Source: Belliella buryatensis
GTDB taxonomy: Bacteria; Bacteroidota; Bacteroidia; Cytophagales; Cyclobacteriaceae
Direction of reading: 5' to 3'
Assembly (NCBI RefSeq): GCF_900188245.1
Contig: NZ_FZOK01000002.1
Coordinates: forward strand, 186,001-250,000
Length of the DNA: 64,000 bases
In this document: positions 14,014 through 26,129 of the stretch, one piece after another
Numbering within the stretch: position 1 is the first letter of the stretch
Layout: each line of letters opens with the position of its first letter
Notes under the pieces: generated by a model
What the model saw: the letters and a program-made list of their open reading frames with translations, nothing else
What the model was told of the DNA's origin: nothing
The model's database searches: none
Made by a program: the position numbers and the translations under genes

Positions 14014-14392
14014 ACTCATTCTGAAAAAAACCATTGTTTTTGAATCCCAAACAATATAAAATTCTGAAAACGCTTATTTTTTCTTTTTAATAAAACATGC
14101 ATTTTATTGATTAATAGCTGCTTAATAAATTTTATCATTATAAAAAAATCAACAATATGATCCTTTTATTACTGATTATGAAAAATCAGAATTTATTTAA
14201 AAATTTTTAAACATTTTCAATAATTTGAAAATTATATTTTGAATTTTATTATAAAATATTGCTAAAATTTTTATAAAATAATTAATTACAGCGCTAAACG
14301 ATTGTGTTTATCATAAAAAAACGATTAAAATATTGTAAGTATCGAAAATGGGCTTTAATATTGTATCGTTGATTGAAATTAAAAATAACCAC
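14014..14392. other. AT-rich divergent regulatory region
   Basis: About 380 bp rich in runs of A and T between ispE and the ilv leader. No reading frame of note. The ilv operon promoter must lie here; TATCGTTG at 14364-14371 is a one-mismatch fit to TAnnTTTG but lacks a well-placed -33 element. Confidence 0.5.
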
Positions 14393-14449
14393 ATGTCACG
14401 TCTAGTCATCTTTATTGGATTCCTAATTCTCATTATTGGAAAGCAATGA
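14393..14449 (+). CDS. Branched-chain amino acid operon leader peptide
   Basis: ATG at 14393 opens an 18-codon frame ending in TGA at 14447-14449, encoding MSRLVIFIGFLILIIGKQ. Five isoleucines, three leucines and one valine make up half of the peptide, exactly the residues made by the operon that follows. The stop codon overlaps the 5' arm of the antiterminator. Ribosomes stalled on these codons when Ile, Leu or Val is scarce would leave that arm free. The peptide itself is presumably only a sensor. Confidence 0.85.
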   Translation: MSRLVIFIGFLILIIGKQ

Positions 14450-14489
14450 GGCGCTAGACTATATCATTCACACAACCATATAAATCTAG

Positions 14490-14518
14490 GTGCCTCATCC
14501 AAGTGAGGCACTTTTTTT
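14490..14518 (+). terminator. Attenuator terminator hairpin
   Basis: An 8-bp perfect stem GTGCCTCA/TGAGGCAC with a 6-base loop, followed by a run of seven T residues. It lies 33 bp upstream of ilvD and is the intrinsic terminator of the leader. Confidence 0.9.
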
Positions 14519-14551
14519 ATAACCACCTATAAAGATAAACCTATTATACCC

Positions 14552-16228
14552 ATGAGTTTGAAAAAATACAGTTGGGAAATCAGCCAAAATGAAGAGCATC
14601 CAGCAGGCAAGGCCATGTTGTATGCCACAGGAATGACTGATAAACAAATGAACCAACCCTTTGTGGGTGTTGCCAGTTGCGGCTATGAAAGTAATCCCTG
14701 CAATATGCACCTCAATAACTTCGCCGGTCTGATCAAAGATGCCACCAAGGCAGATGGTCTGACCGGTTTGGTTTTTAATACCATCGGGGTTTCTGATGGG
14801 ATTTCTATGGGGACCTCTGGGATGCGTTACTCTCTGGTTTCTAGGGAGATTATTGCTGATTCTATCGAATCATTTATCCTTGGACATTCTTTTGATGCGT
14901 GTGTGGCAGTAGCTGGATGTGATAAGAATATGCCCGGGGCTGTGATGGGAATGTTACGTATCGACAGACCATCTATCATGGTCTATGGTGGCACCATTCG
15001 TTCAGGAAATTATAAAGGAGAGAAATTAAATATAGTCTCAGCATTTGAAGCTTACGGTAAGCGTGTCAAAGGTGAAATGAATGATGTCGATTATCAAGGT
15101 GTGATTCAAAATGCCTGCCCAGGTGCGGGTGCTTGTGGTGGTATGTACACTGCCAATACCATGTCTTCGGCTATTGAAGCCATGGGAATGTCTTTACCCT
15201 ATTCCTCTTCTAGTCCTGCGGATAGCCCAGAAAAACTGAATGAATGCAAAGAGGCTTCGAAATACATCAAGATACTTTTAGAAAAAAACATCACTCCAAA
15301 AGATATTGTCACCCGAAAAAGCCTTGAGAATGCAGTAAGGGTTGTCATTGCTTTGGGTGGGAGTACAAATGCAACCTTACACCTCTTGGCAATCGCGAAA
15401 ACTGCTGGGATTGATTTTACGCTGGATGATTTTAAGAAAATCAATGACGAAACACCTTTGCTTGGAGATTTCAAGCCATCAGGTAAATTTTTGATGGAGG
15501 ATCTTTACGAGCAAGGAGGCCTTCCTGCATTTATGAAATACTTTTTGAACAATGGCCTTCTGCATGGAGACTGCATGACAGTTACAGGGAAAACTCTCGC
15601 AGAGAATCTAGCAGATATTGATCCAGTCGTTCCTTCTTTGGTCAATGTCATCCATCCGATCGAACAGCCGCTCAAAGCTTCAGGGCATTTGTGTGTTTTA
15701 AAGGGAAATTTAGCACCTGAGGGTTCTGTAGCCAAGATTTCTGGCAAGGAAGGTAAATCATTTACAGGTCCAGCAAGATGCTTTGATTCTGAGTTGGATG
15801 CGAATGAAGCTATTAAAAATAAGCAAGTTCAAAAAGGAGAAGTGATTGTGATCAGATTCATTGGTCCAAAAGGTGGTCCGGGCATGCCTGAAATGCTCAA
15901 GCCCACATCGATGATCATTGGTGCAGGACTTGGGTCTGACGTAGCCTTGATTACGGACGGTAGATTTTCTGGAGGGACACACGGCTTTGTCGTCGGCCAT
16001 GTCACCCCAGAAGCCTACTTGGGTGGACCTATTGGTTTGCTGAAAGATGGCGATTTGATCACCATTGATGCTGATTCCTTGGAATTAAGCTGTAAGGTGT
16101 CTGAGGAAGAATTTACCGAAAGGAAAAAGTCTTGGAAAAACAAAGACTTGAGTGACTTACAAGGTACTTTGAAGAAATACAATCTATTGGTGTCAACAGC
16201 TTCAGAGGGCTGCGTGACAGATAAATAA
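14552..16228 (+). CDS. ilvD: Dihydroxy-acid dehydratase
   Basis: Iron-sulfur enzyme that dehydrates the dihydroxy acids in valine and isoleucine synthesis. The 558-residue product has the cluster and active-site segments [13 protein letters not shown] near residue 48, [11 protein letters not shown] near 121, and [18 protein letters not shown] near 190, as well as [12 protein letters not shown] near the C-terminus. First structural gene of the operon, 33 bp after the attenuator terminator and 14 bp before ilvB. Confidence 0.97.
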
Positions 16229-16242
16229 TCAATTCCAACACC

Positions 16243-17925
16243 ATGATAAGAGGAGCAGATATTGTAGTGAGATCATTGATAGCAGAGAGTGTGCAGCACA
16301 TATTTGGCTATCCAGGTGGTGCAATCATGCCAGTGTATGATGCACTATATGACTACCATGATCAGATCAAGCATGTACTGACACGTCACGAGCAAGGAGC
16401 GATCCACGCCGCACAGGGTTATGCTCGTGTATCAGGTAAAGTGGGTGTAGCCTTAGCTACATCAGGACCAGGAGCGACCAATCTGATCACAGGACTAGCA
16501 GATGCGATGATCGATAGTACTCCTTTAGTATGTATTACGGGTCAGGTAGCAGCACATCTTTTGGGTTCAGATGCATTTCAAGAGACTGATGTGGTAGGGA
16601 TTTCTATGCCTGTCACCAAATGGAATATCCAAGTCCGAAGAGCTGAAGAAATTGCGCCTGCTATTGCTAAAGGCTTTCATATTGCAAGATCTGGTCGTCC
16701 AGGACCAGTATTAATTGATATCACAAAAAATGCCCAAATAGAGGCAGGGTTATTCAATTATGTACCATGTTTGAGTATTCGATCTTACAGACCACATTTC
16801 CCAGTAGATCCAAATGCGATAGCTCAAGCTGCTGCATTGATCAACCAAGCACAAAGACCTTATGTCCTTTTTGGTCAAGGGGTAATTATTGGGAAAGCCG
16901 AATTGGAGTTGAAAGCATTTTTGGACAAAACAGGTATTCCTGCAGCATCTACTTTACTAGGCTCGGGGGCATTGTCAGAAGATCATCCAGCATATGTTGG
17001 GAAGCTGGGTATGCATGGTAATTATGCACCTAATCTATTGACTAACCAATGCGATATCTTGATCGCCATAGGGATGAGGTTTGATGACCGGGTGACGGGT
17101 GATTTGAATAGGTACGCCAAGCAAGCTAAAGTAGTCCATCTAGAACTAGACCCTGCAGAGATCAATAAGAATGTCAAATGTGAAGTGCCTGTTTTGGGTG
17201 ATTGTAGAGAAAGTTTGTCTCTTTTGATAGATGCTGTCCAAGATAATAACCACCCTGAGTGGTTGGGCAGATTCAGAGAGCTGGAGCTCTTAGAGCAAGA
17301 ATCTGTAATCAATCATGACCTAGCACCGACCAAGACAGGCTTGACTATGGGTGAAGTCATTCGCTACATCAATCAATATAAAGCAGATGATGCAATCTTG
17401 GTGACGGATGTTGGCCAGCATCAGATGATCGCATGGAGATATTTTAATTATAAAAAAAGTAAGACACAAGTTACCTCAGGTGGATTGGGTACCATGGGAT
17501 TCGCTTTGCCAGCAGCACTGGGCGCTCAGATGGCAGACTACAGCAAGCAGGTGATCTGTGTGGTTGGTGATGGTGGAATTCAAATGACCATCCAAGAGCT
17601 AGGTACTATCATGCAGACTAAAGCACCTGTTAAAGTTGTCTTGCTAAATAACAACTTCTTAGGTATGGTGAGACAATGGCAGCAGATGTTTTTTGATCGA
17701 AGGTATTCCTTCACCGAACTGGATAATCCGGACTTTATTAAGCTGGCTGATGCTTATGGAATCAAGGCTGTCAAGGTAGAAGAGCGAGGGGATTTAAGTG
17801 AGGCTGTGGCAGAGATGCTTTTACATAAAGGCCCATTTTTCTTAGAGGTAGTAGTAGAGAAAGAAGATAATGTGTTTCCAATGATTGCTACGGGTTGCTC
17901 TGTAGAAGAAGTGAGACTTAGTTAA
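16243..17925 (+). CDS. ilvB: Acetolactate synthase, large catalytic subunit
   Basis: Thiamine-diphosphate enzyme that makes acetolactate or acetohydroxybutyrate, the first common step. The 560-residue product shows the catalytic glutamate in TRHEQGA (Glu50), SGPGATNLITGLADA, a central FAD-type domain, and the ThDP-binding GDGGIQMTIQEL ... NNNFLGMVRQWQ motif near residues 444-480. It is followed 11 bp later by the regulatory subunit gene. Confidence 0.97.
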   Translation: MIRGADIVVRSLIAESVQHIFGYPGGAIMPVYDALYDYHDQIKHVLTRHEQGAIHAAQGYARVSGKVGVALATSGPGATNLITGLADAMIDSTPLVCITGQVAAHLLGSDAFQETDVVGISMPVTKWNIQVRRAEEIAPAIAKGFHIARSGRPGPVLIDITKNAQIEAGLFNYVPCLSIRSYRPHFPVDPNAIAQAAALINQAQRPYVLFGQGVIIGKAELELKAFLDKTGIPAASTLLGSGALSEDHPAYVGKLGMHGNYAPNLLTNQCDILIAIGMRFDDRVTGDLNRYAKQAKVVHLELDPAEINKNVKCEVPVLGDCRESLSLLIDAVQDNNHPEWLGRFRELELLEQESVINHDLAPTKTGLTMGEVIRYINQYKADDAILVTDVGQHQMIAWRYFNYKKSKTQVTSGGLGTMGFALPAALGAQMADYSKQVICVVGDGGIQMTIQELGTIMQTKAPVKVVLLNNNFLGMVRQWQQMFFDRRYSFTELDNPDFIKLADAYGIKAVKVEERGDLSEAVAEMLLHKGPFFLEVVVEKEDNVFPMIATGCSVEEVRLS

Positions 17926-17936
17926 ATCCAGAATTT

Positions 17937-18449
17937 ATGAATCGCTATACCATACTAATTTATACAGAGAATTTTATCGGTATCCTCAACAGGATCACGA
18001 TAATTTTCACCAGAAGGGGGATCAATATTGATGCACTTACAGCTTCTGAAAGCCGCTTGGATGGAATCCATAAGATCACGATTGAGTGTGCTGTCACAGA
18101 AGAACAAATCATTCAATTGGTCAAGCAAATTGAGAAAATCACAGACGTGATCAAAGCGTATTATTTCATGGATACCGAAGTGGTCTATCAGGAAATAGCG
18201 CTATACAAACTTCCAATAGACAGCTTAGATGCGAGTTTGGAAAAAGTAATCAGACAATATAATGCCCATATTATCGCAGCTGAGAAGGAATTTGTGGTCA
18301 TAGAATTTACAGGGCACAAAGAAGATACGCAGGCTTTGTTGGAAACACTCAAGCCTTACAATCTTCTTGAATTTTCTAGGTCAGGCCGTGTTGCCATTGC
18401 CAAGCCTAGATTTTCTGTATCGGAGTATTTAAATAATCAAACCTTATAA
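17937..18449 (+). CDS. ilvN: Acetolactate synthase, small regulatory subunit
   Basis: A 170-residue protein with an N-terminal ACT domain (ENFIGILNRITIIFTRRGIN, DALTASESRLDGIHKITI) that gives valine feedback inhibition, and a C-terminal domain ending FSRSGRVAIAKPR. Length and domain order are those of long-form IlvN/IlvH. It lies 11 bp after ilvB and 11 bp before ilvC. Confidence 0.95.
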   Translation: MNRYTILIYTENFIGILNRITIIFTRRGINIDALTASESRLDGIHKITIECAVTEEQIIQLVKQIEKITDVIKAYYFMDTEVVYQEIALYKLPIDSLDASLEKVIRQYNAHIIAAEKEFVVIEFTGHKEDTQALLETLKPYNLLEFSRSGRVAIAKPRFSVSEYLNNQTL

Positions 18450-18460
18450 AACCAAAAACT

Positions 18461-19504
18461 ATGAAACTGAAATTTGGATCAGTAGAAGAAAATGTAGTAA
18501 CCAGAGAGGAATTTCCACTGGAGAAAGCTAGAGAAGTATTGAAGGATGAAGTGATCGCCGTATTGGGTTACGGAGTACAAGGTCCTGGTCAAGCATTGAA
18601 CTTGAAAGATAATGGCTTCAATGTTATTGTAGGTCAAAGAAAAGATTCCAAGACTTGGGACAAAGCAGTCGCTGATGGTTGGGTTCCTGGAGAGACACTT
18701 TTCGAATTGGAAGAAGCTTGTGAAAAAGGTACAATTCTTCAATTCTTACTATCTGATGCAGGACAAATTGCACTTTGGCCTACAGTGAAAAAACACCTTA
18801 CTCCTGGAAAAGCATTGTATTTTTCTCATGGTTTCGGCGTGACTTACAAAGAGAAAACAGGCATCGTTCCGCCAGCTGATGTTGATGTGATCTTGGTAGC
18901 TCCAAAAGGTTCTGGAACATCTTTGAGAAGAATGTTTGTAGAAGGTAGAGGGTTGAATTCTTCCTATGCAATCTTCCAAGATGGAACAGGAAAAGCAAAA
19001 GATAGAGTCGTAGCACTTGGAATCGGTGTTGGATCAGGGTACTTGTTTGAGACTGATTTTTACAGAGAAGTTACATCTGATTTGACAGGTGAAAGAGGGA
19101 CTTTGATGGGGGCGATCCAAGGGATTTTTGCTGCACAATATGAAGTATTGAGAGCTAATGGACATACTCCTTCGGAGGCATTCAATGAAACTGTTGAAGA
19201 ATTGACGCAGAGTTTGATGCCATTGGTGGCAGAAAATGGCATGGACTGGATGTATGCCAACTGCTCTACTACAGCACAAAGAGGAGCCTTGGATTGGTGG
19301 AAGCCTTTCAGAGATGCAACTAAGCCGGTATTTGAAGAGCTGTATGATTCTGTGAAAACAGGAAAAGAAGCACAAAAATCAATTGATTCAAATAGTAAAT
19401 CTGATTACAGAGTAAAATTAGAAGCTGAATTGAAAGAATTGAGAGATTCTGAAATGTGGCAAGCTGGCGCAACCGTCAGAAAATTAAGACCCGAAAATAA
19501 CTGA
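18461..19504 (+). CDS. ilvC: Ketol-acid reductoisomerase
   Basis: NADPH- and magnesium-dependent isomeroreductase of the Val/Ile pathway. The 347-residue product begins its Rossmann fold with [20 protein letters not shown], continues with [12 protein letters not shown] (nucleotide specificity loop) and SHGFGV, VAPKGSG, and the C-terminal metal site region [17 protein letters not shown]. The sequence style resembles the fungal-like KARI found in Bacteroidota. Spacing to leuA is 4 bp. Confidence 0.96.
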
Positions 19505-19508
19505 TATT

Positions 19509-21020
19509 ATGAGTGAAAAGCTATGGATATTCGATACCACCCTTCGTGATGGGGAACAGGTACCGGGTTGTCAATTGAACACCCGAGAAAAGATCGTGGT
19601 CGCTAAGGCATTAGAAGAACTGGGAGTTGATGTAATTGAAGCTGGATTTCCAATATCCAGTCCAGGTGACTTCAATTCAGTTGTAGAAATTTCCAAAGCT
19701 GTATCAAATCCCATTATCTGCGCCCTTTCCAGAGCAGTGGAAAAGGATATTGATGTAGCTGCTGAAGCACTGAAATACGCCAAAAAAGGAAGGATTCACA
19801 CTGGAATCGGTGTGTCTCCTTTTCACATACAATACAAACTCAGATCTACGCCAGATGAAATCATTGAGCGGGCGGTCAGGGCGGTAAAATATGCCAAACG
19901 CTATGTAGAAGATGTGGAATTTTATGCAGAAGATGCAGGTCGTGCCGAAAAAGATTTTTTAGCCAGAATATTGGAACAAGTCATCAAAGCCGGTGCTACT
20001 GTAGTCAATATTCCAGATACCACAGGTTATTGTCTTCCGGAACAATACGGAGCAATCATCAGGCATCTAAAAGAAAATGTTTCCAACATTGACAAAGCAA
20101 TCATTGCTACCCATTGCCACAATGATCTTGGTATGGCGACAGCCAACACCATTTCTGGTGTTCAGAATGGAGCAAGACAAGTGGAGGTAACGATCAATGG
20201 GATAGGCGAAAGAGCTGGAAATACTTCCATGGAAGAAGTAGTTATGGCAATCAAATGTCACCATGATATTCCAATCCACACCAACATCGTCACTCCGAAG
20301 ATTTACGAGACCAGCAGGTTGATCTCCAAATTGATGAATATGCCTGTTCAGCCAAACAAGGCCATTGTAGGAAGAAATGCCTTTGCTCATTCATCAGGAA
20401 TCCATCAGGATGGTGTGTTGAAGCACCGAGAGAATTATGAAATCATCGATCCTAAGGATGTTGGAGTTCATGAATCCTCTATCGTTTTGACAGCAAGAAG
20501 TGGAAGAGCTGCATTGAAACATCATTTGGATGCTTTGGGAGTGGTGTTGGAAGGTGAGGCCTTGAACGAAGTGTATGAAGAGTTTTTGGTTCTAGCGGAT
20601 TCAAAAAGAGATATCACTCCAAAAGATCTACTTTCTTTGGTTGGAAAATATGTGGATGAATCTACTTTTATCGAATTGGAAAAAGTAAGTTACGAGTCTA
20701 ATGGATCTATTAAAGCAAGTGTTACTCTGAAAGTCGGTGACAAAACTGAGCAAGCTTCTTCAAGTGGAAATGGCCCTGTAGATGCAGTGCTTAAATCTAT
20801 CGAGAAAATCGTAAAGCCGGATATTGAGTTGGAAGAGTTTCTTATACAAGCTATTACGGCAGGAAGTGATGATGTAGCAAAAGTCCACATGAGAATCATG
20901 CAAGGAAAAATCCCTTACTATGGTTTTTCTTCCAATACAGATATCGTTGTCGCATCTGCGCAGGCATTTGTAGATGCTTTGAATAAAATACCCGTCAAAA
21001 ATAAAGTGACAGTAGCTTAA
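19509..21020 (+). CDS. leuA: 2-isopropylmalate synthase
   Basis: Condenses acetyl-CoA with 2-ketoisovalerate, the committed step to leucine. The 503-residue product shows [20 protein letters not shown] at the N-terminus, the metal-binding [14 protein letters not shown] near residue 200, [15 protein letters not shown], and [19 protein letters not shown], followed by the C-terminal regulatory domain (about 370-503). This is the classical LeuA of the two synthases in the operon; leuC starts 2 bp after its stop. Confidence 0.95.
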
Positions 21021-21022
21021 TT

Positions 21023-22423
21023 ATGGAAAAGAAAACATTATTCGATAAAATTTGGGATGCACATGTGGTGAAATCTGTTCCTTCGGGACCTGATGTATTC
21101 TTCATTGATAAACATTTTATCCATGAAGTAACTAGCCCTGTTGCATTTTTGAATTTGGAAAAACGTGGCGTAGGTGTTCTTCATCCTCAAAGAACTGTGG
21201 GCACACCAGATCACAATGTGCCAACGGTGGATCAAGATAAGACCATCAAAGACAAGCTTTCAAGAATGCAAGTTGAAAAGCTTCGTGAAAACTGTAAGAA
21301 GCATGGCATTGAATTGCATGATTTAGGTTCTGCCCATCATGGAATTGTTCATGTGATTGGTCCAGAATTGGGGATTACGCAGCCTGGGATGACGATTGTT
21401 TGTGGTGATAGCCATACTTCTACCCATGGAGCTTTTGGAGCGATTGCTTTTGGTATTGGTACATCAGAAGTTGAAATGGTCTTGGCTACGCAATGTATCA
21501 TGCAAAGCAAAGCCAAGAAAATGCGCATCACAGTTGATGGTGAATTGGGTGCAGGAGTGACTTCAAAAGATATAATTTTATACATCATCGCTAAAATCTC
21601 AGCGGCGGGCGCAACGGGTTATTTCGTGGAATATGCTGGCTCGGCAATCGAAAGCCTTAGCATGGAAGCAAGGATGACTATCTGTAATATGAGTATAGAA
21701 ATGGGTGCGAGAGGTGGTCTAATTGCCCCTGACGAAACCACTTTTAATTACCTAAAAGGAAAGCAATATGCTCCAAAAGGAGAAGAATGGGAAAAGACAG
21801 TTGCTTATTGGAAGTCGCTGAAAACGGACGATGAAGCTGTTTTTGATAAAGAATATCATTTTGATGCCGCCGATATTGAACCCATGATTACTTATGGTAC
21901 CAATCCTGGGATGGGTATCAAAGTCAAAGGAAATATACCAAGCACTGAAGGTATGGAAGGAAGCAACAAATCTTCCTACTTGAAGTCATTGGATTACATG
22001 GGTTTTGTGCCAGGTGAGGCGATCCAAGGGAAGAAGGTTGACTTTGTTTTTGTAGGAAGCTGTACCAATGGCCGAATCGAAGATATCCGATCAGTTGCCA
22101 ATTATGTGAAGGGTAAGAAAAAGGCGGATAACATCACCGCTTGGATTGTACCGGGTTCGAGAGAAGTTGAAAAAATGGCACATGAAGAAGGCTTAGTGAA
22201 AATCTTAGAAGAAGCAGGATTTGAGTTGAGACAACCAGGATGCTCTGCTTGTTTGGCGATGAATGATGATAAGATTCCTTCTGGAAAATACGCTGTCTCC
22301 ACTTCAAACAGAAACTTTGAAGGCAGACAAGGGCCAGGAGCCAGAACTATGCTCGCGAGTCCATTGACTGTGGCAGCTGTGGCTGTCAAAGGTGAGATAT
22401 GTGACCCTAGAGAGATCTTTTAA
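21023..22423 (+). CDS. leuC: 3-isopropylmalate dehydratase, large subunit
   Basis: Aconitase-family 4Fe-4S isomerase in leucine synthesis. The 466-residue product shows [20 protein letters not shown] near residue 129, the [14 protein letters not shown] cluster site near 346, and [17 protein letters not shown] with the other two cluster cysteines near 409. It pairs with leuD, whose gene starts 18 bp later. Confidence 0.97.
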
Positions 22424-22441
22424 TTCTTAAAAAAGAAAAAA

Positions 22442-23035
22442 ATGGCTTACGATAAATTTAATGTATTGACTTCAACAGTCGTCCCGCTTCCAAACGAAAA
22501 CGTGGATACAGATCAAATCATCCCTGCAAGATTCTTGAAAGCAACTGAGCGGGAAGGTTTCGGAGACAATCTTTTCAGAGATTGGAGATATGATGTAGAG
22601 GGCAATCCAAAAAAGGATTTTGTATTGAATGACTCCACCTATTCTGGAAAAATTCTCCTCGCAGGTAGAAATTTTGGTTCTGGCTCGAGTAGGGAGCATG
22701 CCGTTTGGGCATTGTATGATTATGGGTTCAGATGTGTGGTATCTAGCTTCTTTGCTGATATCTTCAAAAACAACTGTCTGAACATCGGAGTACTTCCAGT
22801 GACTATCAGCCCAGAGTTTGCAGACGTATTGTTTGCAGCAGTTGAAGCTGATCCAAGGACAGAAGTAGAAGTGGATATAGATACACAAAAAATAACTCTA
22901 TTGAGCACAGGTCAATCAGAATCTTTTGATATCAATGCCTACAAAAAAGAGAACATGAAAAATGGCTTTGATGACATAGACTACCTTTTGAATTTAAAAG
23001 AAGAGATAGAGGAGTTTGAGAAAGGAAGAAAATAA
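22442..23035 (+). CDS. leuD: 3-isopropylmalate dehydratase, small subunit
   Basis: The swivelling domain partner of LeuC. The 197-residue product contains NVDTDQIIPARFLK near residue 20 and the substrate-recognition loop GRNFGSGSSREHAVWAL near 76. It is followed not directly by another gene but by a 366-bp repeat-bearing spacer before the next synthase gene. Confidence 0.97.
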   Translation: MAYDKFNVLTSTVVPLPNENVDTDQIIPARFLKATEREGFGDNLFRDWRYDVEGNPKKDFVLNDSTYSGKILLAGRNFGSGSSREHAVWALYDYGFRCVVSSFFADIFKNNCLNIGVLPVTISPEFADVLFAAVEADPRTEVEVDIDTQKITLLSTGQSESFDINAYKKENMKNGFDDIDYLLNLKEEIEEFEKGRK

Positions 23036-23036
23036 A

Positions 23037-23367
23037 TTGAAAGGATGAAGGCTGAGGGATCAAGGATGAAAGATTCAAGAACCAAGACAGAGGATATCAA
23101 TGGAGGAAGGGAAAAGGAAAAAGAGGTGAATTCAAATCTTTTATCATATTTCGATATGATATTTCGATTAGAAAAAAACAACCCCGAAGGGGTTAAACTA
23201 TGATTAACCCCGGGTTGCAACCCGGGGATTAAGATGATTTCATCGGACAACAACCCCGAAGTGGGTTGAATTTGAAATGCTTGTAAATAGAAAAAAATAA
23301 CATCAATCAATTCAAAATATCTAAAATCAAAATTTCATCCCTCAAACTTCATCCTTCCTCCTTTCAA
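23037..23367. repeat. MITE-like element with REP-type palindromes inside the leu operon
   Basis: The spacer between leuD and the next synthase gene has inverted ends: TTGAAAGGATGAAG...TGAGGGAT at 23037-23060, and its near reverse complement at 23337-23367 with a 7-base insertion. Inside are palindromes: AACCCC-GAA-GGGGTT (23180-23194), a perfect 20-bp palindrome with arm CCCCGGGTTG (23208-23227), and CAACCC-N6-GGGTTG (23251-23268). No reading frame is present. Just before the next gene the sequence is repetitive (TCTAAAATC). It is probably a mobile non-autonomous element tolerated in the transcript. Confidence 0.65.
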
Positions 23368-23401
23368 AATCTAAAATCTACCCTCTACAATCTAAAATCA
23401 C

Positions 23402-25030
23402 ATGGGAACACACCGTAAAATAGAAATCATGGATACCACACTGAGGGATGGAGAACAGACCTCGGGCGTGTCCTTTTTACCTTCTGAAAAGCTTCAGATA
23501 GCCAAGTTGCTATTGGAGGAAATGAAGGTGGATAGGATCGAAGTGGCGTCGGCAAGGGTTTCTCAGGGTGAGATGGAAGGTGTCAAGAAAATCACCCAAT
23601 GGGCTGCCGAAAAAGGCTATTCCGACAGGGTTGAAGTACTTGGTTTTGTGGATACACCAGCTTCTGTAGATTGGTTGGTGGAGGCTGGAGCAAAAGTCAT
23701 GAATTTATTGACCAAAGGTTCTCTCAATCACCTGACCCATCAACTCAAAAAGACTCCCGAACAACATTTTGAGGATATCCATACTTGTGTAAAATATGCT
23801 AGAAGCAAAGGGATCACAGTCAATGTTTACTTAGAAGATTGGAGTAATGGGATGCGTAATTCTATGGATTACACCATGGAACTGATCGGATTTTTGAATG
23901 AAATCCGAGTGCGAAGAATTATGCTTCCAGATACCTTGGGACTTTTGCATCCCAGAGAAGTTTCCCATTTTGTGAAATTAATCACAACCGAATTTCCGGA
24001 TTGCCATTTTGATTTTCATGCACACAATGACTATGACCTTTCTATTGCGAATGTGCTTGAGGCGATTTATAATGGCATTGCAGGAATTCATACTACTGTC
24101 AATGGACTTGGAGAGCGAGCTGGAAATGCGCCTTTGGAGTCAGTGACAGCTGTGCTTAAAGATTTCACGGATTACAAAATCAGTCTCAATGAAAGCAAAA
24201 TCTACCGTGTCAGCAAGTTGGTGGAGCAGTTTTCTGGACAACATATTCCTGCCAATAAGCCCGTGGTCGGGGAAAATGTATTTACACAAACTGCAGGAAT
24301 TCATGCGGATGGGGACAACAAAAAGAACCTTTATTTCAATGACTTGCTTCCAGAGAGATTTGGGAGACAAAGAAAATATGCGCTTGGAAAAACTTCCGGG
24401 AAAGCCAATATTCTCAAAAACCTACAAGAATTGGGGATATCGCTTGAGCAGGATGAATTAACCAAAGTGACGCAAAAGATCATCGAGCTTGGCGACAAAA
24501 AAGAACGGGTGACCACAGAGGATTTGCCTTATATTATTTCCGATGTATTGCAGAATAATTCGATTACGAAGAATATCTTTATCGAAGGCTACCACATGAC
24601 CCACTCAAAGGGATTGAAACCAACCGTGCAACTGAAACTCAGCATCCATGGAAAATCCTTCGAAGAATCTTCTTCTGGAGATGGTCAATATGATGCGTTT
24701 ATGCGCGCTTTGGTGAAAATTTACAAGTCGCAGGGATTCCAGCTTCCCAAATTGACGGACTACCATGTCTCCATTCCTCCAGGAGGAAAAACAGACGCTT
24801 TTGTGGAAACAGTCATCACTTGGGATTTTGGGAAAATCTTCAAAACCAAAGGATTGGATTCCGATCAGACTGTAGCTGCGATGATGGCGACCGAAAAAAT
24901 GTTGAATATTATAGATAAAATGGATGCAAGGGCTTCTGATAAAGTGAAATTTCAGGAGCTGAAAAATCAAAACCCAGAACAAGACAAAGAGAATTTCTAT
25001 GGAAATGAATATAGCACTACTGCCAGGTGA
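23402..25030 (+). CDS. LeuA-family acyltransferase, probably (R)-citramalate synthase
   Basis: A second member of the isopropylmalate synthase family, 542 residues: [20 protein letters not shown] at the N-terminus, the metal site [15 protein letters not shown] near 200, [15 protein letters not shown], an [12 protein letters not shown] segment, and a C-terminal LeuA-type regulatory domain (about 390-515). It differs clearly from the first LeuA in the substrate region ([20 protein letters not shown]). The operon makes isoleucine enzymes but no threonine dehydratase is present here, so citramalate synthesis from pyruvate and acetyl-CoA is the likely role; homocitrate or a second isopropylmalate synthase activity cannot be excluded. 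Its 3' end overlaps leuB by 32 bp. Confidence 0.75.
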
Positions 25031-26060
25031 TGGCATAGGACCTGAGGTAATTGCTCAGGCAGTAAAAGTGGTCAAAGCTGTTGGAAAGAAGTTTGGCCAT
25101 ACGATCAATTTCGAAGAAGCGGCTGTTGGGGCTGCTGCAATAGACTTGACAGGAAATCCTTACCCGGACGCAACCCATGAAGTTTGCTTAAGAGCAGATG
25201 CGGTGCTTTTTGGAGCTATCGGAGATCCTAAATATGACAATGATCCCAAAGCTAAAGTAAGACCAGAACAAGGTCTTTTGGAAATGAGGAAAAAATTGGG
25301 ACTCTTTGCCAATATCCGACCGACATTTACTTTTCCTTCCCTGATTCACAAATCTCCTTTGAAGCTAGAAAGAGTCGAAGGAGTAGATTTTGTTTTCTTC
25401 AGAGAACTGACTGGCGGAATTTATTTTGGTGAGCCAAGAGGAAGAAACGAGCAAGGAACAAAGGCATTTGATACCAATGTCTACACCAAAGAAGAAATCA
25501 CGAGACTGGCTCGAATGGGTTTCGAAGCTGCACAAAAAAGAAGAAAATTGCTTACATGTGTGGACAAAGCCAACGTCTTGGCTACTTCTAGATTGTGGAG
25601 GGAAACGGTGCAAGAACTTGCTCCAGAATACCCTGATGTCAAAGTAGAATATGAATTTGTGGATGCGGTGGCGATGCGCTTGATCCAATGGCCAAAAGCT
25701 TACGATGTTTTGATCACAGAGAATCTTTTTGGAGATATTTTGACTGACGAAGCTTCTGTGATTTCAGGATCTATGGGCTTGATGCCATCAGCCTCTGTTG
25801 GGATAGAAAATAAATTGTTTGAGCCAATTCACGGTTCCTATCCACAAGCAGCAGGCAAAGACATCGCCAATCCATTGGCTACGGTGCTATCAGCAGCGAT
25901 GATGTTTGAGTACGCTTTTGATATGAAAGCAGAAGCCCAAGCCATTTCAGATGTAGTGAATAAATCTCTTTCAGAAGGAATCGTAACCGAAGATATCGCC
26001 GAAGGTGCCAAAGCCTACAAGACCTCCGAAGTTGGAGATTGGTTGGCGGAGAATGTTTGA
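24999..26060 (+). CDS. leuB: 3-isopropylmalate dehydrogenase
   Basis: NAD-dependent oxidative decarboxylase of leucine synthesis (also accepts methylmalate in the citramalate route). The 353-residue product starts [20 protein letters not shown], and shows the substrate-binding [20 protein letters not shown] near residue 240 and [18 protein letters not shown] near 276. ATG at 24999 lies inside the preceding gene; the next in-frame ATG at 25005 is also possible. Last gene of the operon, followed by a strong terminator. Confidence 0.96.
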
Positions 26061-26088
26061 GACACGCTCTTACATAAATTAGTGAAGT

Positions 26089-26129
26089 AAGCTTTCCCAA
26101 AATTTTAAAATTTTGGGAAAGCTTTTTTT
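26089..26129 (+). terminator. Rho-independent terminator of the ilv-leu operon
   Basis: A perfect 18-bp palindrome (arm AAGCTTTCCCAAAATTTT, 26089-26106, with its exact complement at 26107-26124) runs into a tract of seven Ts. It lies 28 bp after the leuB stop. Folding would leave a few central A-T pairs as the loop. Confidence 0.9.

Follow-up and report, generated by a model that had tools for sequence, protein, structure and literature searches.

Upstream of ilvD in Belliella buryatensis we found a short open reading frame rich in isoleucine, leucine, and valine codons, followed by an intrinsic terminator and an antiterminator that competes with it. The best explanation for this arrangement, and very probably the correct one, is classical ribosome-mediated attenuation of transcription in response to Ile, Leu, and Val. 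The leader, the promoter motif, the terminator, the antiterminator, and the spacing between them can all be read from the aligned sequences of relatives. The window is the whole stretch of 64,000 nucleotides that we analysed, and all coordinates in Table 1 refer to it.

In the mechanism that we propose, transcription would begin upstream of the leader ORF. When charged tRNAs are short, the translating ribosome would slow at the Ile, Leu, and Val codons of the leader, with its leading edge ending just before segment 2; segment 2, left free, would pair with segment 3 and block the terminator, and RNA polymerase would continue into ilvD and the eight further genes. With the amino acids in good supply, the ribosome would run on to the stop codon and cover segment 2, and segments 3 and 4 would form the terminator. 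We infer that in the cell the switch responds to amino acid supply in this manner.

Table 1. Features of the leader region and the downstream operon (positions in the window).
Feature	Position	Strand	Basis
Bacteroidota-type promoter, predicted: ATTG (14332-14335), 20 nt, TAATATTG (14356-14363)	14332-14363	+	motif
Leader peptide ORF MSRLVIFIGFLILIIGKQ, 18 codons, stop TGA	14393-14449	+	translated ORF
Segment 1 (1:2 stem): 14400-14406 pairs with 14453-14459, 14410-14417 with 14444-14451	14400-14417	+	fold and synonymous-recoding test
Segment 2, antiterminator arm, overlaps stop codon	14444-14459	+	pairing analysis
Segment 3, partner of segment 2 (antiterminator) or segment 4 (terminator)	14485-14498	+	pairing analysis
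Intrinsic terminator (3:4), AGGTGCCTCAT-CCAA-GTGAGGCACTT, 11-bp stem, loop CCAA, T-run	14488-14518	+	terminator scan
ilvD, dihydroxy-acid dehydratase	14552-16228	+	NCBIfam TIGR00110, 724 bits against a cut-off of 618
ilvB, acetolactate synthase large subunit	16243-17925	+	TIGR00118
ilvN/H, acetolactate synthase small subunit	17937-18449	+	TIGR00119
ilvC, ketol-acid reductoisomerase	18461-19504	+	TIGR00465
leuA, 2-isopropylmalate synthase	19509-21020	+	TIGR00973
leuC	21023-22423	+	TIGR00170
leuD	22442-23035	+	TIGR00171
cimA-like, citramalate/isopropylmalate synthase family	23402-25030	+	best match NF042433 CimA, 695 bits, below curated cut-off of 950
leuB	24999-26060	+	TIGR00169
Terminator-like hairpin, 16 pairs, operon end	26089-26124	+	terminator scan

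For comparison we collected 53 related loci, each from a distinct genome encoding an IlvD at least 76% identical to that of the window (five duplicate named loci were dropped); the IlvD of Belliella aquatica, for example, is 99% identical. A leader ORF was present at the same place upstream of ilvD in all 53, which confirmed the 18-codon Ile/Leu/Val leader that a first-pass annotation had reported from the window alone. In nine of the loci more than one ORF or ATG was a candidate, and the choice was made by hand. The leader ORF ended 57 to 80 nt 5' of the end of the terminator T-run in every locus, and in the window 38 nt separate its end from the 11-bp terminator stem.

Ile, Leu, and Val made up on average 51% of each leader (range 24-80%) and 53% of the pooled residues after the start codons (Ile 25.7%, Leu 16.3%, Val 11.4%). 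The control codons are therefore those of the end products of the downstream operon. Codon choice was also skewed: CTC accounted for 59 of the 143 Leu codons and GTC for 88 of the 100 Val codons of the leaders, compared to 5.1% of Leu and 19.5% of Val codons in the background, which consisted of 14 genes, all from the window. A sensor of decoding would be expected to use rare control codons; part of the bias may instead serve RNA pairing. One could also imagine that the nascent peptide itself arrests the ribosome in response to a ligand, since the stall-dependent geometry would then look identical. This is very unlikely, as the peptide differs greatly from group to group in all but its richness in Ile, Leu, and Val, and the bias toward rare Leu and Val codons points to decoding speed.

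Promoters of Bacteroidota have the consensus TTTG/TANNTTTG. With a motif of this type in front of the leader, transcription would be expected to start near 14370, upstream of the ORF. All 53 loci carry the pattern [AT]TTG-N18..22-TANN[AT]TTG no more than 120 nt 5' of the leader ATG, as against 0.57% of 1060 single-base shuffles, and each time ATTG-N20-TAATATTG or a motif close to it ended 25 to 56 nt before the ATG. A short leader ORF with its own start codon thus lies behind a predicted operon promoter throughout the set (53/53 for the ORF and for the motif). Conservation in the promoter region (14325-14366) extends beyond the two boxes, with ATTGTAAGT... in many loci, and the same region holds a near-repeat of TTAAAATATTGT and TTTAATATTGT; for these reasons, a protein may bind there in addition.

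RNA folding, one of the checks named in the first-pass annotation, gave z = -6.0 for positions 14380-14530, and none of 200 shuffles was equally stable. A detector that is blind to the sequence itself, and that calls a terminator preceded by an ORF in which at least 6 of 10 residues are Ile, Leu, or Val, recovered leader and terminator in 52 of the 53 loci. It gave no call in 59 reverse complements and 59 shuffles (one each) of more distant regions, so the pattern of leader and terminator is beyond chance. A simpler terminator finder missed two of the 53 loci (L041 and L048). The intrinsic terminator lies between the leader and the first gene, and 98.8% of its aligned cells were paired across the 53 loci. 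Two-sided changes occurred at two of its pairs, from C-G to U-A in 11 loci at one and in a single locus at the other.

The antiterminator was similarly well kept. In the window TGAGGC (14447-14452) faces GCCTCA (14492-14497), and 95.8% of the cells of the 2:3 stem were paired, compared to 26-50% when the register was slid by 1 to 3 columns. Here the two-sided change was from G-C to A-U in 12 loci, all at one pair. The number of loci with two-sided changes, 12 in each stem, was reached by none of 500 shuffles, and for both stems the number of cells with such changes and the covariation score exceeded all 500. In the antiterminator only one pair had a two-sided change, which was no more than in the shuffles (mean 1.4), nor did the pair types of this stem show an excess over them. 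Because related loci inherit the same changes, the shared ones probably reflect few events; the 53 loci include many close relatives (50 distinct alignment rows), and the counts are not independent events. A 2:3 antiterminator that excludes the terminator thus appears to be kept by covariation, with its changes at one pair and perhaps few events behind them. These predicted, conserved stems support the original proposal of Ile/Leu/Val-responsive attenuation in which a 2:3 antiterminator competes with a 3:4 terminator.

A plain intrinsic terminator with a fixed level of readthrough, beside which the small ORF is incidental, would account for the terminator, which is real. It would leave unexplained a leader that recurs in 53 of 53 loci while the peptide changes and the residue classes stay the same, the rare codons within that leader, and a conserved antiterminator with matching changes, and we regard it as extremely improbable.

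The amino acid leader families of Rfam gave no match in the window at the gathering threshold. Between segments 2 and 3, at 14472-14480, ACAACCAUA / ACAACCATA is conserved in many relatives and lies outside both tested stems. Such an element, in the structured 5' part of a transcript for amino acid synthesis, could belong to a metabolite-binding riboswitch or a T-box that controls the terminator. However, no Rfam family of any kind reached its gathering score in the whole window, the best match of a permissive search was an unrelated sRNA (25.7 bits against a gathering score of 56, E 0.005), and most of the conserved columns are coding or belong to the switch stems. Control by a riboswitch or T-box is therefore scarcely credible, and membership in an Rfam family was rejected on the same searches.

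The attenuator model predicts that the position of the ribosome sets the structure, and in silico it does. Each transcript was folded up to segment 3 with the ribosome footprint masked codon by codon, at equilibrium and not co-transcriptionally. The mean antiterminator probability was 0.95-1.00 with the A site five or more codons before the stop and 0.90 at four codons, and it then fell to 0.55 at three, 0.25 at two, 0.19 at one, and 0.04 at the stop. With the footprint edge at 13 nt, it was 0.92 when the last Ile, Leu, or Val codon occupied the A site, compared to 0.04 at the stop. For the leader of the window, the codon-by-codon folding gave 0.999 when the last Ile codon occupied the A site and 0.0 two codons later. 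Requiring both a probability above 0.5 at some Ile, Leu, or Val codon and one below 0.1 at the stop, 45 of the 53 loci passed and eight failed.

These results depended on the assumed reach of the ribosome. With edges of 12 to 14 nt, the antiterminator was favoured at the last Ile, Leu, or Val codon in 48-49 of 53 loci and at the stop in 0-4, so that in these calculations a stall frees segment 2 and a ribosome at the stop codon covers it. With an edge of 16 nt it was favoured at the last control codon in 28 of 53 loci only, and with an edge of 10 nt it still formed at the stop in 10 of 53. According to a passage of one earlier study, ribosome cover reaches up to 12 nt beyond the stop (PMC4833913).

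The TGA stop had been described at first as forming the first bases of the antiterminator arm. This stands for 29 of the 53 loci, the window among them, where the stop begins 1 nt ahead of the core of the arm; it does not stand as a general feature, as the offset is 4-11 nt in the other 24, and we gave up the idea that the design generally centres on the stop codon. On the other hand, 13-16 nt separated the last Ile, Leu, or Val codon from the core of the arm in 50 of 53 loci. Judged from these spacings, it is the stall geometry and not the position of the stop that is kept.

The first-pass annotation had also described a minimal design of two hairpins, in which one stalled or released ribosome decides the outcome directly and no extra hairpin takes part. 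The two-hairpin design does not hold as stated, since a 1:2 stem is present: its fold beat the mean of 100 synonymous recodings, drawn with the codon usage of the window, in 51 of 53 loci (mean z -1.8; below -1 in 38 of 53). It holds in part, since the stem is predicted to be weak. Pair counts also depended on the register. In one fixed register 73.7% of the cells of the outer helix paired, with two-sided changes at four of six pairs; the ten two-sided cells were reached by one of 500 shuffles, but two of six slid versions gave 13 and 14. Chimeras that combined segment 1 of one locus with segment 2 of another gave a mixed result, in that a median of 32% were as good as the native pair; L001 was better than all of its 93 chimeras and L051 was matched or beaten by all 91. 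We set this test aside as uninformative for many loci, because conserved arms pair across species, the register moves, and a fixed codon stretch was used. We conclude that the 1:2 stem exists and that selection probably maintains it, its register shifting from group to group.

In ribosome-free RNA at equilibrium the antiterminator was preferred in 39 of 53 loci (mean 0.72), although co-transcriptional folding could favour 1:2. With a weak 1:2 stem and a free leader that is mostly in the antiterminator form, the decision may well fall largely to the stalled or released ribosome, and to that extent the idea of a direct decision survives beside the extra stem. One could go further and suppose that the ribosome-free leader is on by default, since the 1:2 stem would be too weak to protect the terminator, and that only a ribosome at the stop codon turns the operon off. 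We offer this reading tentatively and consider it rather doubtful. If it is true, the switch would report completed rather than stalled translation, the reverse of the default of E. coli his and trp, and a poor supply of ribosomes or of initiation would raise, not lower, the synthesis of branched-chain amino acids.

The E. coli his and trp attenuators resemble the Belliella attenuator in their segments 1 to 4 and in a switch set by the ribosome, and masked folding gave a change between on and off for both. They differ in the ribosome-free state, where a related measure put the antiterminator probability at 0.02 for hisL and 0.00 for trpL (off) while the Belliella attenuator family was mostly on at equilibrium (39/53). 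The generic calculation gave ribosome-free values of 0.53-0.83 in six hand-picked loci of the Belliella attenuator family, one of which (L056) retained 0.46 antiterminator at the stop. For E. coli ilvL the same calculation showed no clear switch; we dropped it as a yardstick and used hisL and trpL as controls.

E. coli ilvGMEDA offers a further likeness, as its Ile/Leu/Val leader (ilvL) is likewise followed by a terminator and by genes of the pathway concerned, and the E. coli leu attenuator too has a leader of the Ile/Leu/Val type, a terminator, and same-pathway genes. In contrast, ilvL has 32 codons and the Belliella leader 18, and in Belliella a single attenuator precedes nine ilv and leu genes and the window has no Rfam match at the gathering score.

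The surveys of Vitreschak et al. 2004 and Lopatovskaya et al. 2010 reportedly predicted classical attenuators in several groups including Bacteroidetes/Chlorobi. This sits ill with a passage of a 2010 study of premature terminators, which cites Vitreschak et al. 2004 and states that leader peptides were until then found only in Proteobacteria and Actinobacteria, to which it added Firmicutes (PMC2965389). The passages of the Bacteroidota literature that we consulted hold brief mentions of leader peptides only. In Flavobacterium psychrophilum, which belongs to a different family of the phylum, one passage reports strong signs that operons for amino acid biosynthesis are preceded by attenuating leader peptides, and it names none of these operons (PMC9723704); another describes short ORFs reminiscent of leader peptides in Bacteroides thetaiotaomicron (PMC7366714). 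Our search, in which subscription journals were thinly covered, found no paper on ilv or ilvD attenuation in Bacteroidota.

A covariance model of the attenuator had one match in the Belliella buryatensis genome, at the leader locus. In a search of 241 genomes of the order with stricter filters, by which weak matches are lost, it matched 15, every one from the family to which Belliella belongs. Among 56 more distant ilvD upstream regions (from 19 of 130 genomes with an IlvD identity below 76% and from 37 of 68 further matching genomes) the detector gave 15 convincing matches. Its output was 17 of 59, from which L131 and L137 were dropped as weak; L134 to L136 are the his and aspartokinase regions of the Belliella buryatensis genome itself. 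The positives included all eight genomes retrieved for a family from a different class of the phylum (L098-L100, L103, L105, L106, L108, and L109). In the 15 distant loci, the best partner of the 5' arm of the terminator overlaps or adjoins the last codons of the leader, taking the best duplex and with no control. A wide family defined by sequence was rejected: the matches of the covariance model are confined to the own family, and beyond it only the logic is shared.

The nine biosynthetic genes that the first-pass annotation had placed downstream were borne out by NCBIfam, with the cimA-like gene below its cut-off, and their order on one strand recurred in 14 of 14 relatives of the group that we examined. 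The exceptions within these operons were L141, which lacks leuA at its place, and L150, whose ilvB gave a partial match and whose leuA was matched as two pieces. In contrast, two distant loci show only ilvDBNC within about 13 kb. Between the attenuator and the hairpin at the operon end (14518 to 26089) the plus strand has five weaker terminator-like hairpins of 5-8 pairs, all within genes. The presence of a cimA-like gene in the leu part of the operon suggests that isoleucine is made via the citramalate route. The gap between leuD and this gene is 366 nt in the window and 12-382 nt in the 14 relatives, and at 23160-23275 it holds several palindromes (AACCCCGAAGGGGTT, CCCCGGGTTGCAACCCGGGG) that resemble a small interspersed repeat. 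Compared to L138 (genome G002), the operon (14393-26060) has 96-100% protein identity in ilvD and from ilvN to leuB and only 87% in ilvB, while the leader region and ilvB (95%) are nearer to L139 (G007) than to G002. A mosaic operon, with recombination within it, is a possible reading of these identities.

Leaders of other composition occur elsewhere in the genus and family. Upstream of hisG a His leader (..HHxHHSS-stop; in the own genome G000:C18, L093 1296-1409) was seen in eight of eight Belliella-genus genomes. A 6- or 7-bp hairpin (UUCCUC..GAGGAA) holds its stop codon in the loop, with CAUAUCGCCC 9 nt later, and the terminator scan found no T-run terminator at the own-genome copy. A Thr-rich leader (e.g. 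MTTIFATTITG-stop) precedes an 842-aa aspartokinase frame in the own genome (G000:C13, L094) and in seven other Belliella-genus genomes. The leader ends in a hairpin of the same shape as that of his, whose 6-bp stem (5 bp in the own-genome copy) has different letters and whose 5-nt loop contains the stop UAA, and a more or less close form of CAUAUNGCCC follows about 8-10 nt later. Five his and thr loci, two of them his, reached no Rfam family at the gathering score. The his and thr leaders share a layout, and in the own genome no terminator is visible with it; this suggests that a second type of attenuation exists there.

In a survey across the family, taking the 30 best of 58 genomes, allowing non-ATG starts, and with no control run, 29 of 30 hisG upstream loci (L173-L202) had an ORF with at least three His in six residues. 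A stop-in-loop hairpin with a motif like AUAUCGCCC 16-17 nt after the stop was present in at least six (L185, L187, L190, L192, L197, and L198). We also considered a broken aspartokinase gene with one in-frame TAA and dropped it; the TAA is probably an ordinary stop, because the open frame, at 425 aa, has the length seen in relatives (424-435 aa).

On the evidence of the alignments, the Ile/Leu/Val attenuator upstream of ilvD is a new and conserved case, in Bacteroidota, of a well-known kind of switch. It would provide a well-supported, testable attenuator for a whole nine-gene pathway in this phylum. Attenuation of this kind needs coupled transcription and translation, and the predicted switch may thus offer a handle on coupling in Bacteroidota.
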